DNA of 24,334 bases from a virus. A program made the position numbers and the translations under genes. The notes under the pieces are model-generated. The model ran no database searches. It was not told the origin of the DNA and was given only the letters and a program-made list of their open reading frames with translations. Below are positions 6,619-24,334 of the stretch, one piece after another (positions within the stretch are counted from its first letter, which is position 1; the number at the start of each line of letters is the position of its first letter). The stretch is from the IMG/VR virus record IMGVR_UViG_3300045135_000513, positions 1 through 24,334 of that record; one strand, given 5' to 3'.

Positions 6619-7284
6619 TTAAGCTTTTTTCTTTGGTGCCAGCCAAGCTTTCGCTTGCGGCATAGTAGGATCTTGTTTAGACCACGCACCAATACGTTTG
6701 TAGACTGAATTAGTAGCGCCAACATAGTTAGAGCCTTCAGAGTTATCTACAATGTACATATGGTTACCCATCATGTTTTGGAATTTACCCATATTGTTCT
6801 GAACTGCTTTCCACATAGTTGTAACCTCTTCCGCACCGAGAGAACGGTCACGCTGAGAGTCACGGTGAATAGCAGTATCCAAATCGGTATTAACAAAGAT
6901 CATAGCGCATTCGTAACCGATCTTTTTAAGTTCGATAACTTGCCTTTTAATCTTTTCATAGTCTTTACCTGTACCGTCTATAACTAGACCAAGACGACCA
7001 TCGACAGCGAACTTCATTTGTTTAGCTGTTAGAGCTTTAGCCTTGATGCGCAGCATCTGACCTTTTTCAGAATAGATGTCTTCAGGTGTAGTCTTTAGTC
7101 CAGCTTTAGCCAGAGCGTTTTCAAAAGACACATCAGAGTTAATCAATTTAAAGCCTAGAGATTGTAGAGCGGTCTTACCAACGATAAACGACTTACCAGA
7201 TCCTGGTCCGCCCGCTAGGAAAACTGCTTTAAAGATAGCGGGGTCGTTTACCCCTTCCTCTAGGTGTTGCTTAAATGATAACAT
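6619..7284 (-). CDS. P-loop kinase (zeta-toxin/polynucleotide-kinase-like)
   Basis: 221 residues. A Walker A motif GGPGSGKS is at 25-32 after a hydrophobic strand (AVFLAG). INSD (48-51), VIDGTGKD (101-108) and HRDSQRDRSLG (an Arg-rich lid) match phosphotransferases of the zeta-toxin and T4 Pnk kinase type. The substrate cannot be read from the sequence. The first residues MLSFKQHLEE resemble a short N-terminal motif I have seen in other marine T4-like phage proteins. Its start overlaps the exonuclease stop as TAATG, and a TATAAATA box lies 32 bases upstream inside that gene. Confidence 0.85.
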   Translation of the reverse strand: MLSFKQHLEEGVNDPAIFKAVFLAGGPGSGKSFIVGKTALQSLGFKLINSDVSFENALAKAGLKTTPEDIYSEKGQMLRIKAKALTAKQMKFAVDGRLGLVIDGTGKDYEKIKRQVIELKKIGYECAMIFVNTDLDTAIHRDSQRDRSLGAEEVTTMWKAVQNNMGKFQNMMGNHMYIVDNSEGSNYVGATNSVYKRIGAWSKQDPTMPQAKAWLAPKKKA

Positions 7285-12383: not shown

Positions 12384-12458
12384 TGGAGCGGGTAGCGGGA
12401 ATCGAACCCGCATTCTCAGCTTGGAAGGCTGATGTATTAGCCATTATACCATACCCGC
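12384..12458 (-). tRNA. tRNA-Gly(TCC)
   Basis: 75 bases with encoded CCA. Acceptor GCGGGTA pairs with TACCCGC; the anticodon stem TCAGC/GCTGA holds loop CTTCCAA (anticodon TCC); the T-arm has GGGTTCGATTCCC. It decodes GGA/GGG. Confidence 0.97.
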
Positions 12459-12463
12459 ATTAA

Positions 12464-12540
12464 TGGCGTCCCCAGTAGGATTCGAACCTACGACCGATAG
12501 CTTAGAAGGCTATTGCTCTATCCTGCTGAGCTATGGAGAC
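12464..12540 (-). tRNA. tRNA-Arg(TCT)
   Basis: 77 bases with encoded CCA. Acceptor GTCTCCA/TGGGGAC, anticodon stem ATAGC/GCTAT with loop CTTCTAA (anticodon TCT), T-arm GTAGGTTCGAATCCTAC. It decodes AGA/AGG, codons often rare in bacterial hosts. Five bases separate it from tRNA-Gly. Confidence 0.97.
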
Positions 12541-18158: not shown

Positions 18159-18845
18159 TTAGTCCCAAAGACTTTCATAATATTTCCCGAATAGACGGAA
18201 GCCATTAGAGATGCGCTCTTGATATGATTTACGACCTTCCATATCGATTTCAAAGGTATGGTTTGGTCCTTTACGCCATTCATAATATTCGGCATCTTCT
18301 TTCGCTACTTCGTTTCCGTCTTTATCTACAGGAACAGTAATACGATCATGATTACCGCTGTAGAACTGATCTTCCCAATCACCATTAAGTTTAGATTCAA
18401 AGGCAAAGATCATTTCATCCATCACGTAGTCCCAGCGAGCAAAGAAGTGAATATCAATTTGACCGTTCTTAGCATACAGAGCCTCTTCAGCCTCATTTGG
18501 CCATAATGCTTCCGGAACATCTTCTTTGTCGACGTGAGGAGCTCCTTGCTTTGTATCCTTAAGCTGCCTTAGCATAGGAACGATGATATGAGCGAGCGTC
18601 GCATCCATACTCCACGTATCCCAACGATCGATCTTTACGTTTACCTTCTGTTCACGTTTGTCCAAGAAATAGTTGATAGGACGATAACATGACTGAATAA
18701 TATCGTCGAACTTATCTAACAAACGCTCAAACTTAGTTTGTTTGCTTTCCGATGGCCAGTGAGAATAACCATACTTCTTTGTCATGTAATCAGCGTAAAT
18801 TGTCGTATTCAAACGACTTGGATATGGTCCAATTTTAACTTTCAT
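18159..18845 (-). CDS. Conserved phage protein, unknown function
   Basis: 228 residues. Strongly patterned motifs: VKIGPYPSRLN at the N-terminus, VNVKIDRWDTWSMDATLAHI with IVPMLRQLKDTKQGAP, a metal-site-like IDIHFFARWDYVMDEMIFAF and the charged GNHDRIT. The DxWxxWSMDxTLAxI and HVDxEDVPEALW signatures are widespread among phages of several kinds without a known function. AAGGA site; the start lies within the end of the glutaredoxin gene. Confidence 0.82.
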   Translation of the reverse strand: MKVKIGPYPSRLNTTIYADYMTKKYGYSHWPSESKQTKFERLLDKFDDIIQSCYRPINYFLDKREQKVNVKIDRWDTWSMDATLAHIIVPMLRQLKDTKQGAPHVDKEDVPEALWPNEAEEALYAKNGQIDIHFFARWDYVMDEMIFAFESKLNGDWEDQFYSGNHDRITVPVDKDGNEVAKEDAEYYEWRKGPNHTFEIDMEGRKSYQERISNGFRLFGKYYESLWD

Positions 18846-22292: not shown

Positions 22293-22421
22293 TTAGTCTA
22301 CGCAGATAACTGATAGGTTTTTGCCAAGAGTGCGAGCATATTTAACGGCTGCAGCACGATCTTTGAATGATAGCTTAATGCCTTTAGCACTGTTGCGTGG
22401 TGTAATAAGATACTTTTTCAT
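22293..22421 (-). CDS. 42-residue basic protein
   Basis: MKKYLITPRNSAKGIKLSFK then DRAAAVKYARTLGKNLSVIC: a strand-helix-strand mini-domain, basic. AGGAG site and position right after the strongest promoter in the window suggest high early expression. It may be a small host-takeover protein; that is inference. Confidence 0.7.
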   Translation of the reverse strand: MKKYLITPRNSAKGIKLSFKDRAAAVKYARTLGKNLSVICVD

Positions 22422-22450
22422 AATATAGTTCTCCTCAATTCAATATAGCT

Positions 22451-22479
22451 ATTATACCAAATAGAATCGAGAATGTAAA
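22451..22479 (-). promoter_or_regulatory. Near-consensus sigma70 promoter
   Basis: TTTACA (22474-22479), a 17-base spacer and TATAAT (22451-22456), preceded by an A/T-rich UP-like tract. It starts the small-gene operon reading left. Confidence 0.9.
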
Positions 22480-22526
22480 CAGTTTTATTAGATTATTTTG
22501 GAATAAGGATATAACAGGAAGGAATA

Positions 22527-22602
22527 TGGTGGGCCCAGCTGGATTCGAACCAGCGACCAAAGACTTATGAGGTCTCTGCGCTAACCGCTGCGCCATAGGC
22601 CC
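22527..22602 (-). tRNA. tRNA with CAT anticodon (Met or Ile2)
   Basis: 76 bases with encoded CCA. Acceptor GGGCCTA/TGGGCCC, anticodon loop CTCATAA (CAT), T-arm GCTGGTTCGAATCCAGC. The segment TTTGGTCGCTGGTTC and the acceptor end resemble the E. coli tRNA-Ile2 (CAU) more than the elongator Met tRNA, so it may be read as AUA-decoding Ile after lysidine modification of C34 by host TilS. The amino acid identity is not certain. Confidence 0.95.
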
Positions 22603-22906
22603 AAAGAGGAGGAGACACTCGATCGGGTACTCCCAATCCTTATTCTCCGTTATCAGCCACCGCACGTTACAGTGGACTTACAAAGTGGACTAGACTCACC
22701 ACTCTCTGCATTCGTCACTTACAGAGCATTTTCCCTACCGTCCGTAGATGTAGGCGCTGATTTGAGCATTGTTAAGAGGCTTGGCGGGTGTCTCAATTAG
22801 TAAAACGCACTAGACCGTGGCAAAGATATCAGCATGGATGTTTCCAGAGCCACTATTTGATATCGTCGTGGAGGGCGCCACACTTTCCACGCTTTACCTA
22901 GTGCGT

Positions 22907-22985
22907 TTTAGAATAGACACTGGGTTCGAACCTCTAGTACCTTGCGCCAGAAGCACATTGGGGTACTAGCAGTGCCTATTCTAAA
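22907..22985 (-). repeat. Stem-closed RNA subdomain, copy 1
   Basis: The 16-base arms TTTAGAATAGGCACTG (minus, 5' side) and CAGTGTCTATTCTAAA pair fully with one G-U. Inside are an 8-bp stem (CTAGTACC/GGTACTAG) and the self-complementary GGTTCGAACC (22923-22932), giving a three-way junction. The outer arms are shared with the copy at 23032-23115; the interior is different. Confidence 0.7.
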
Positions 22986-23031
22986 GTGCGGTTTTAGTTT
23001 TAAGACACAGACCGCAAACTGTTCCTTAGCA

Positions 23032-23115
23032 TTTAGAATAGACACTGGGTCTGGGCCACGTCATGAGGGCATCGGCCATCCTCCCTCGACTAATCACCAC
23101 AATGCCTATTCTAAA
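23032..23115 (-). repeat. Stem-closed RNA subdomain, copy 2
   Basis: Same closing stem as the unit at 22907-22985, but the 5' arm has GCATTG where the other has GCACTG, turning one C-G into U-G and keeping the pairing. The interior holds a GAGGG/CCCTC hairpin and is otherwise unrelated. A third 5' arm (23762-23773) lies just after tRNA-Cys without a matching 3' arm nearby. Confidence 0.68.
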
Positions 23116-23774
23116 GACGGGGAGAGAACTTCGGCAAAAGCCTCTCCCCTTTGCTTCCTTCTATTACGTCAAATCCCTTGCCGAGGATCGACCACCTTAT
23201 ACGATGGAAGCCAGATCGTAAAAGGATGGGTTATATAGATTCTGTTAACGTGCATCTTACGCACTTCACCACGCTTAGTGGACAGAACCTCGGGTAACAC
23301 CTTTACCGTCACGGACTTGACCTTATTACAGGTAGTGTGCAATCATGTTTCCATGTACCCTGTTGCATTATACAGAACATTTAGCGTCTTTCAAGACACC
23401 ATCCCTTTCGGGGACCTGACTGCTTAATGTCTGCTCCAAATCCAAGAAACCGCAATCGTGTTTCTTATCTAACCACCAACCTATTTCGCTGGCGTTAGTG
23501 GACTGGGAAAGGCACACTGGAGAAACCCGCAGTTTGTGACGAGCCCCTTGATCCAATGTGCTTTAGAAAGGACTCTGCGGTTACTACTTACCGTTTGGTT
23601 TTATTCAGAGCTTCACACTGCGTAGTACGGATTCACAATGCTACACGCTATATAGTATTCCAAAGTCCTTTCTAAATAGTTGCCCCAGTAGCAGCCAGAT
23701 GAAGCTAAACAGCAACTTCCGCTTACTAGACGCTAAGGTAGGTTGGGGCACCCTTGCCAAAGCCTATTCTAAAT

Positions 23775-23850
23775 TGGAGCTGAGTACTGGATTTGCACCA
23801 GCCTTAAATGGATTTGCAATCCATTGCCTAACTGCTCGAGCCAACTCAGC
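23775..23850 (-). tRNA. tRNA-Cys(GCA)
   Basis: 76 bases with encoded CCA. Acceptor GCTGAGT/ACTCAGC, anticodon stem ATGGA/TCCAT with loop TTGCAAA (GCA), T-arm CTGG/CCAG with a TGCAAAT loop. The structured-RNA region starts directly after its CCA. Confidence 0.96.
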
Positions 23851-23991
23851 TTAAATTGATCTGCTTAATAGCATCAACAGATCAGAAACATTCCATGCTA
23901 ACCCTTCACTGAGTAGTTAATCTATGACGTTGTATGATTAACTTTTACTTGCCAACTCGTTTCATTGGTTGTTTCTTTATTTTATGTATCT

Positions 23992-24020
23992 ATTATAATC
24001 TAACTTTCTCTAAAAGTAAA
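23992..24020 (-). promoter_or_regulatory. Sigma70-like promoter of the tRNA/ncRNA block
   Basis: TTTACT (24015-24020), a 17-base spacer and TATAAT (23992-23997), with an A/T-rich upstream tract like the other promoters. It lies about 140 bases before tRNA-Cys; the leader contains a GATCTG/CAGATC hairpin (about 23858-23883) just before the tRNA. Confidence 0.85.
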
Positions 24021-24065
24021 CAATTATTTGCATTATTTTTAGATCAATTTGTTATAACGTTATGC

Positions 24066-24227
24066 CTACCTGTTATTACCCGATGTTACTCCGATGCTTA
24101 CACTCTGCTTTATTTCTAGGGTGATTGGCCACACCCATACGGAACTCTGTTTTCCGGATCTTCCCAACTCGGCAAGAATTTCAGATCCTTCATTTACGAC
24201 ATAAGAACTTTCCACAGGTCTGACCAC
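24066..24227 (-). CDS. Possible 53-codon ORF with GTG start
   Basis: One frame stays open for 53 codons and reads like protein (VVRPVESSYVVNEGSEILAE, then LGRSGKQSSVWVW, then PITLEIKQSVSIGVTSGNNR). Only GTG starts are available (24227 or 24215) and no ribosome site is visible. The same stretch contains hairpins (GGTG/CACC, GGAA/TTCC, GGATCT/AGATCC), so it could instead be part of another structured RNA. I cannot name a family. Confidence 0.4.
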   Translation of the reverse strand: MVRPVESSYVVNEGSEILAELGRSGKQSSVWVWPITLEIKQSVSIGVTSGNNR

Positions 24228-24241
24228 GTCTTAATTGGCGG

Positions 24242-24280
24242 TTAAGATAACATTAATTAACTTAATATATATTATCTTAA
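24242..24280. repeat. AT-rich inverted repeat
   Basis: Arms TTAAGATAA (24242-24250) and TTATCTTAA (24272-24280) are perfect 9-bp inverted repeats around a 21-base A/T-only centre except for three C, including the palindrome TTAATTAA. It lies just upstream of the possible 53-codon ORF. It could be a protein-binding site, a promoter region or a weak terminator. The remaining 24281-24334 shows no gene. Confidence 0.55.
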
Positions 24281-24334
24281 TAAAGCTCTATCATCGTCTC
24301 GTGTCCGCTACAACCTCTCACAACCATCTAATTA

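Follow-up and report, generated by a model that had tools for sequence, protein, structure and literature searches.

The 1,171 bases between two tRNA genes of this phage form a mosaic of about a dozen stem-closed modules, a description that is well supported, rather than a single ornate RNA of fixed architecture. We propose that these separately folding modules are exchangeable protein-binding RNA decoys made together with the phage tRNAs and that the abiF-like one neutralizes the toxin AbiF; we give this reading a probability of roughly 55%. The array is well supported, whereas its function we infer: the block probably supplies RNA decoys against host defenses, because one of its modules copies the RNA antidote of a bacterial suicide-defense toxin.

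A structured noncoding block between two tRNA genes

The window, which is the whole stretch of 24,334 nt analyzed here, is a 24.3-kb phage piece with genes that include those for SSB, an exonuclease, a 2OG-Fe(II) oxygenase, a polynucleotide-kinase-like protein, an endolysin, and a phosphoesterase. A protein with a Zeta-toxin/AAA_33 (polynucleotide-kinase-like) domain (PF06414; E = 1.9e-9) is encoded at 6619 to 7284 (minus strand). A second tRNA pair, tRNA-Gly(UCC) and tRNA-Arg(UCU), lies at 12384 to 12540 (minus strand), and its tRNA-Gly(UCC) gene is 88 to 94% identical to tRNA genes of E. coli and Sinorhizobium phages.

The block, at 22604 to 23774 on the minus strand, takes up the whole gap between tRNA-Cys and tRNA-Met with 0 to 1 nt left over, and the tRNA ends placed by ARAGORN agree with the coordinates proposed for it in the earlier note. 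Its parts and flanks, in the direction of the minus strand, are as follows (L numbers designate phage and viral loci used for comparison).

23992 to 24020, minus: promoter-like site TTTACT-17-TATAAT upstream of tRNA-Cys (consensus scan, 10/12)
23775 to 23850, minus: tRNA-Cys(GCA), 5' flank of the array, CCA encoded, 3' end abutting the array (ARAGORN; Rfam RF00005)
23757 to 23773, minus: orphan 5' arm of the frame stem (UUUAGAAUAGGCUUUGG), 3' partner missing (sequence)
23681 to 23750, minus: module M0, closed by UGCCCCA/UGGGGCA (fold)
23562 to 23676, minus: module M1, 115 nt, frame-stem variant UUUAGAAAGGACUUUG/CAGAGUCCUUUCUAAA (fold, -38.0 kcal/mol)
23512 to 23561, minus: module M1b, GCACAUUGG/CCAGUGUGC hairpin (fold)
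23444 to 23466, minus: small hairpin with loop CACGAUUGC; a similar hairpin lies upstream of module B in L050
23373 to 23433, minus: module M2, three-way element including the GAAA-capped hairpin (fold)
23367 to 23394, minus: internal promoter-like site TTGAAA-16-TATAAT directly upstream of module B (consensus scan, 11/12)
23292 to 23360, minus: module B, core CCWGUAAYAWGGUCRAGUCC..CGGUAA in stem GGGUA/UACCC
23237 to 23290, minus: module M4, stem AGGUUCUGU/ACAGAAUCU with two inner hairpins, kept beside B in L121, L124, and L138
23119 to 23149, minus: hairpin GGGGAGAG..CUCUCCCC (fold)
23032 to 23115, minus: module A, constant frame stem UUUAGAAUAGGCAUUG/CAGUGUCUAUUCUAAA, core GAUUAG..AGGAUGGCCGAUG..UGGCCCAG (alignment A1, model R1)
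22987 to 23016, minus: hairpin UGCGGU/ACCGCA (fold), conserved in L124
22907 to 22985, minus: module M6, frame stem UUUAGAAUAGGCACUG/CAGUGUCUAUUCUAAA as in module A, different core
22802 to 22909, minus: module M7, second frame stem AAAACGCACUAGG/CUAGUGCGUUUU, with other cores in L124, L138, and L052
22755 to 22786, minus: module C, abiF-like RNA motif (CCAAGCCUCUUAACAAUGCUCAAAUC; RF03085, 33.8 bits)
22611 to 22685, minus: module F, core UUUGUAAGUCC-hairpin-GGCWGAUAA-stem-AUAAGG-hairpin-CGAGUG-stem (alignment A3, model R2)
22527 to 22602, minus: tRNA-Met(CAU), 3' flank of the array (ARAGORN; Rfam RF00005)

A protein-coding block was rejected: the longest stop-to-stop run on the minus strand is 64 codons, each frame has 18 to 28 stops, and no convincing reading frame is present, as had been claimed. 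The folding energy is -422 kcal/mol versus -354 ± 10 kcal/mol for dinucleotide shuffles (z = -6.8), whereas six coding control stretches of equal length gave z values of -0.2 to -2.0. The lack of a convincing frame and this excess of structure over the controls indicate that the earlier observation of a large structured phage noncoding RNA inside a tRNA operon was real. More than ten near-perfect stems were found, where at least ten perfect or near-perfect ones had been counted, and the reported GAAA-capped hairpin was located at 23404 to 23418.

Two other elements of that description fared less well. The long-range stem GAGACAC...GUGUCUC, thought to close a 3' domain, can be drawn, but the homologues do not support it: its 3' strand pairs locally there, in a covarying helix of module F (GGAGA/UCUCC), and L028 is without the partner strand. 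A single upstream promoter had been assigned to the whole block; the site upstream of tRNA-Cys exists, but it is only one of three good promoter-like sites, the others being the internal one and one downstream. The number of promoter-like sites is barely above that in shuffles (8 found versus 4.7 expected), and such matches are no evidence of function.

At gathering score, Rfam release 15 matched the tRNAs alone; none of the modules A, B, and F matches any of its families. Besides tRNA and abiF, nothing was matched above chance at E values up to 10, which bears on any likeness to ToxI by Rfam models alone. Hits to MIR1514, HPnc0260, and 6A were below threshold and were taken as chance, and a Plastid-ycf2 hit is the antisense of a tRNA.

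Recurring modules and constant frame stems

When the block was searched at the nucleotide level against 50,697 phage records, no long match came back; the matches were short and noncoding, with A, B, and C each matching different phages singly. Modules A, B, and F recur singly or reordered in unrelated phages. Module A is also found in Ackermannviridae, Chaseviridae, and Schitoviridae and in contigs L023, L121, L124, and L138. In an alignment of 15 distinct sequences from these three phage families and marine contigs, made without reference to structure, 95.4% of cells are paired and 20 of 22 pairs show compensatory changes. The covariation score is 0.681 versus 0.209 for shuffled alignments (0/500 reaching it) and is lost when the partner is slid. 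Sequence varies freely in the outer stem, whereas GAUUA(G), AGG(AU or UA)GGCCGAUG, and UGGCCCAG are conserved, as is characteristic of a core displayed on a stem.

Module F, which recurs in about a dozen further viral contigs, has a covariation score of 0.323 versus 0.169 for shuffles (0/500; 12 sequences); pattern hits in L119, L120, L122, L123, L126, L128, and L129 were left out as coding or chance-like. Covarying pairs among homologues are thus found for both A (very strong) and F (good). Module B is conserved mainly in sequence, with a small alifold covariation term, and closing-stem changes are seen in comparison with L050. Its core also occurs in T4-like phages, Vibrio phages, L050, L121, L124, and L138, and Enterobacter phage KMB17 carries copies in tandem. 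Exact patterns for A and B, the two modules searched in this way, had no hit in 84,980 bacterial and archaeal genomes; E. coli genomes were also empty for both, and a bacterial source was rejected. In exact-pattern form, A and B are therefore phage specific, and no cognate host system is identified by this route.

The order and content of the array change from phage to phage. In Ackermannviridae, module A lies in an unannotated gap of the tRNA cluster with neighbors that differ in order by genus (X1 precedes A in CBA120 and follows it in IME250 and KpS110). The true relatives of the window's array, L121, L124, and L138, were found by two pattern scans. A route through a nearby protein gave 30 loci with no array within reach, and one of those contigs (L083) was later shown by pattern scan to hold the orthologous array (L124). 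This array, on an 82-kb contig with a protein 77% identical to that of the window at 18159 to 18845, has the same tRNA-Cys/tRNA-Met flanks but a different 5' module and is without the standard abiF motif. The L121 and L138 arrays lie between tRNAs other than those of the window. Blocks common to the window and these three relatives are 72 to 98% identical (mostly 85 to 98%) and are arranged differently. In L121, tRNA-Asn is followed directly by C and F and then by M1b, B, M4, and A, whereas C and F come last in the window; in L050, B is immediately 5' of C. Module M1b falls within a block common to L121 (96%), and its closing stem is altered on both sides in L138. The window has M2, which is missing at the corresponding place in L121, L138, and L124, and no homologue of M0 or M1 has been found so far. 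The orphan arm at 23757 to 23773 has lost its partner in the window, and a similar arm is paired in L138 around another core. Judged from these sequences, the block behaves as an array that gains, loses, and moves modules.

Two side observations concern the surroundings of module A. Escherichia phage CBA120 has a 617-nt unannotated structured gap in its tRNA cluster (L002, 1167 to 1783; about 137370 to 137986 of the genome) that holds module A and other reordered modules. Near module A in L003, L077, and L078 (Chaseviridae and Schitoviridae) are unannotated tmRNA-like resume sequences with tags such as ANDNEMRAAA, ANDSEMRVAA, and ANDDVVLMAA, for which the tmRNA hits are weak and sub-threshold.

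Some closing stems are shared by modules with unrelated cores. A near-constant stem, UUUAGAAUAG.../...CUAUUCUAAA, surrounds at least seven unrelated cores in different phages in the manner of a cassette. With small variations, the stem UUUAGAAUAG(A/G)CAYUG/CAGUGUCUAUUCUAAA is present at nine related loci (L052, L053, L121, L124, L130, L131, L133, L136, and L138), mostly between or beside tRNA genes; hits in L132, L134, L135, L137, and L139 were left out as coding or chance-like. The cores inside this first frame are A (window, L121, and L138), D (L052, L053, L130, and L133), and at least five others, and nearly the same arms as those of M6 enclose core D in L052 and L053. Among seven cassettes, the arms are 94% identical on average, a figure to which the search pattern contributes by fixing 20 of 28 positions, and the cores are 46% identical versus 46% for shuffled cores, a dissimilarity that does not stem from the pattern. 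In L130, L131, L133, and L136, the first frame takes turns with a second one, AAAACACAC/GUGUGUUUU, of which M7 of the window has a variant as its closing stem. Since one frame holds many cores and core A sits on a different stem (AGAAAGCACA/UGUGCUUUCU) in L124, stem and core are exchanged independently.

Other structured elements were noticed near the frame cassettes. Upstream of those in L130, L131, and L133 is a further conserved structured piece, GCGNGGGGAACAGTGGAGGGAAC..GTGTGCCGGATACCGATACTGA, preceded in L130 and L133 by a strong-looking promoter. The tRNA array of L053 (IMGVR_UViG_3300007541_000408; minus strand) contains a hammerhead-like stretch about 140 to 90 nt upstream of the core-D cassette and before a tRNA ending TCCTGCACCA. 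By eye it reads as a type-I hammerhead core (CCTGC-CTGATGA-GTCC..GGAC-GAAAC-GTCAC..GTGAC-GTA-GTAGG), and it gave no Rfam hit at the thresholds used.

The abiF-like module

Module C is a sub-threshold near-miss to the abiF RNA model RF03085 (33.8 bits against a gathering score of 37; E = 2.5e-6 for this record). It is 95.6% identical over 45 nt to L028 and 97.6% identical over 42 nt to L050, which both score 45 bits, while L121 scores 45.4 bits; the region also matches Acinetobacter phage Acj61. All 23 invariant columns of the phage set (alignment A4) are kept in the window, and one near-invariant G is replaced by A, leaving a C-A mismatch beside the core, so this copy is possibly weakened. In sequence, module C copies the abiF RNA motif with slight degeneration. 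The inner three pairs of the abiF-like hairpin are invariant, and compensatory changes occur in three pairs of the outer stem. Because covariation support is weak, the case for this module rests on homology. A search of E. coli for abiF gave just 19-nt chance matches in aaeR.

The exact 21-base abiF core is present in 27 IMG/VR contigs, and all 27 exceed the RF03085 gathering score. No Abi_2 (PF07751) protein was found in any of 28 phage records, including the window, most of which are fragments, so that an Abi gene could lie outside some of them; the array-bearing records likewise have none. A Phocaeicola plasmid, in which this search recovered Abi_2 beside the motif, served as a positive control. 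Two Legionella plasmids carry an annotated Abi family gene directly downstream of the motif and a Piscirickettsia plasmid has the motif without an Abi gene, such that three of the four plasmid copies adjoin one. Since the plasmid controls show the gene and the 28 phage records do not, the phage copies are orphans.

The arrangement of the phage motifs varies. Some are solitary (L028, L037, and L048), closely preceded by promoter-like sequence or with a T-run immediately behind the hairpin, and L052 has a long structured insert in the apical loop. In L121, L136, and L138 the core is circularly permuted, with AUGCU(C/U)A(A/C)AUCG first and CCAAGC second, and a new loop joins the strands across the outer stem. 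The permuted outer stems differ in sequence yet stay paired (ACCUCC/GGAGGU and ACCCCCC/GGGGGGU). A core that is kept while its backbone is rewired is what would be expected if a protein-facing core were selected, and these forms suggest such selection. We found no description of permuted abiF cores in the open-access literature.

Published work bears on what such a core may do. RCd22, a bacterial abiF noncoding RNA with abiF motifs, binds AbiF directly and neutralizes it both in cis and in trans, an activity that mutations in its stem abolish (PMC12373285). In cyanophage S-CREM1, an abiF small RNA was noted and called only probably functional during infection (PMC9964418).

Permuted tmRNA genes (RF04321; 107 to 115 bits) were also observed at L025 7863 to 8128, L042 5300 to 5576, and L052 629 to 888. 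The L025 and L042 genes directly follow an abiF motif on its 3' side, the L052 gene lies downstream of the looped-out abiF core, and the tmRNA gene of L025 has a core-D module between its halves.

Proposed function, alternatives, and known systems

In the model that we favor, the array would be transcribed together with the flanking phage tRNAs, as its position suggests, and the 0- to 1-nt spacing is consistent with tRNA processing freeing its ends. The modules probably fold independently, which covariation and shuffling support, and each would be a rigid stem displaying a conserved core that binds one protein. Phages appear to gain, lose, reorder, and swap cores, with the stem often staying as a constant frame. 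From homology and the published biochemistry, the abiF-like core is predicted to bind AbiF, a HEPN-type toxin, and to hold it inactive during infection; by analogy, the other conserved cores may be decoys for other host proteins, most likely defense nucleases or toxins. More tentatively, several phage families might draw on one pool of exchangeable cassettes in tRNA operons as an anti-defense arsenal, with each core a decoy or antitoxin mimic for a different defense protein. The abiF core would then be the first recognizable one, and A, B, D, and F would mark defense systems not yet known to use RNA; we regard this extension as possible but somewhat doubtful.

An alternative that we consider unlikely, yet take seriously, is that the modules are independent small or stable phage RNAs of mixed roles (translation, phage-gene regulation, and antisense), with only the abiF-like one acting against defenses, and that they have gathered in the tRNA operon because expression there is good and the RNA is processed. 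The array modules also occur in tmRNA-bearing and tRNA-rich regions, in L127 module F is found by itself behind a reading frame, and the abiF motif of Roseobacter phage CRP-143 lies between the scaffold and capsid genes. Module B is found directly upstream of the vs.8 start codon in L004 (1487 to 1555; Dhakavirus JS98) and other T4-like records, where it could be a cis element or 5' leader. However, the exchange of cores within a constant frame suggests a single way of use common to the modules.

That the block is one large ornate RNA of the GOLLD or ROOL kind, folding and perhaps oligomerizing as a unit with the modules as its domains, is improbable. Its size of 1.17 kb, its elaborate folding, and its place beside phage tRNA genes (tRNA-Cys and tRNA-Met) would fit, as GOLLD and ROOL are themselves phage RNAs close to tRNA islands (PMC12286853). 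However, neither model matched at gathering score or at E values up to 10 on 22400 to 24334. There is also no single conserved global architecture: modules are absent, inserted, and reordered even among close relatives and stand alone in other phages, which disfavors a fixed fold. The membership in GOLLD or ROOL suggested in the earlier note is thus not supported; its fallback, a new class should neither model match, comes nearer, with the novelty lying in an array of interchangeable modules.

It is very improbable that the modules are decoys for tRNA-attacking nucleases, such as anticodon nucleases, instead of mimics of antitoxin RNAs. Phages carry tRNAs against tRNA-cleaving defenses, and tRNA arrays are associated with the modules throughout. 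A recent report describes a case of phage tRNAs acting against such a defense (PMC13096335). However, neither ARAGORN nor Rfam scores cores A, B, C, and F as tRNA, and the match of one of them is to an antitoxin RNA. Functionless former tRNAs or neutral hairpin repeats are scarcely credible, for although the orphan frame arm shows decay of some parts, they are contradicted by the many pair cells with compensatory changes in A and F and by the conservation of a core across phage families.

In the open-access literature we found no account of phage RNA cassettes that keep their stems constant and exchange their cores. Module C alone would be an orphan, sub-threshold relative of a known RNA motif. 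If the decoy model is correct, phages carry a modular, recombining set of RNA inhibitors that goes beyond single RNA tricks, and the place to look for them is the unexplained noncoding DNA between the genes of phage tRNA clusters, also in well-known phages such as CBA120 and T4 relatives. Each conserved core could then be used as bait for the host protein that it binds, making a search for as yet unrecognized RNA-regulated defense systems directly practicable. The orphan and permuted abiF cores would also reveal the selected part of this RNA, which is the antitoxin of a Cas13-related toxin.

The block resembles GOLLD and ROOL in being a large, elaborately folded phage RNA adjoining tRNA genes, but it has no covariance-model match to them and is modular and reordered instead of having one conserved fold. 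The permuted tmRNA (RF04321) of phages is a neighbor of abiF and core D in L025, L042, and L052, although the block itself scores as no tmRNA. Module C has the same 5'-CCAAGCCUCUUAACAAUGCUCAAAUC core as abiF RNA (RF03085; for example RCd22, the type III antitoxin of AbiF) but differs in being sub-threshold, without an AbiF gene, and present in a single copy amid unrelated modules, and relatives carry permuted and loop-inserted forms. There are two precedents for phage RNA mimicry of host defense RNA. Racr RNA anti-CRISPRs are phage noncoding RNAs that mimic host defense RNA, as is proposed for the array, but they are solitary mimics of CRISPR repeats (PMC10651486). The pseudo-ToxI of phage PhiTE would resemble module C in action, as it copies a host type III antitoxin and blocks abortive infection (PMC3475682). 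It concerns another toxin family, however, and consists of direct repeats of one ToxI-like unit, whereas the array described here has many different units on constant stems.
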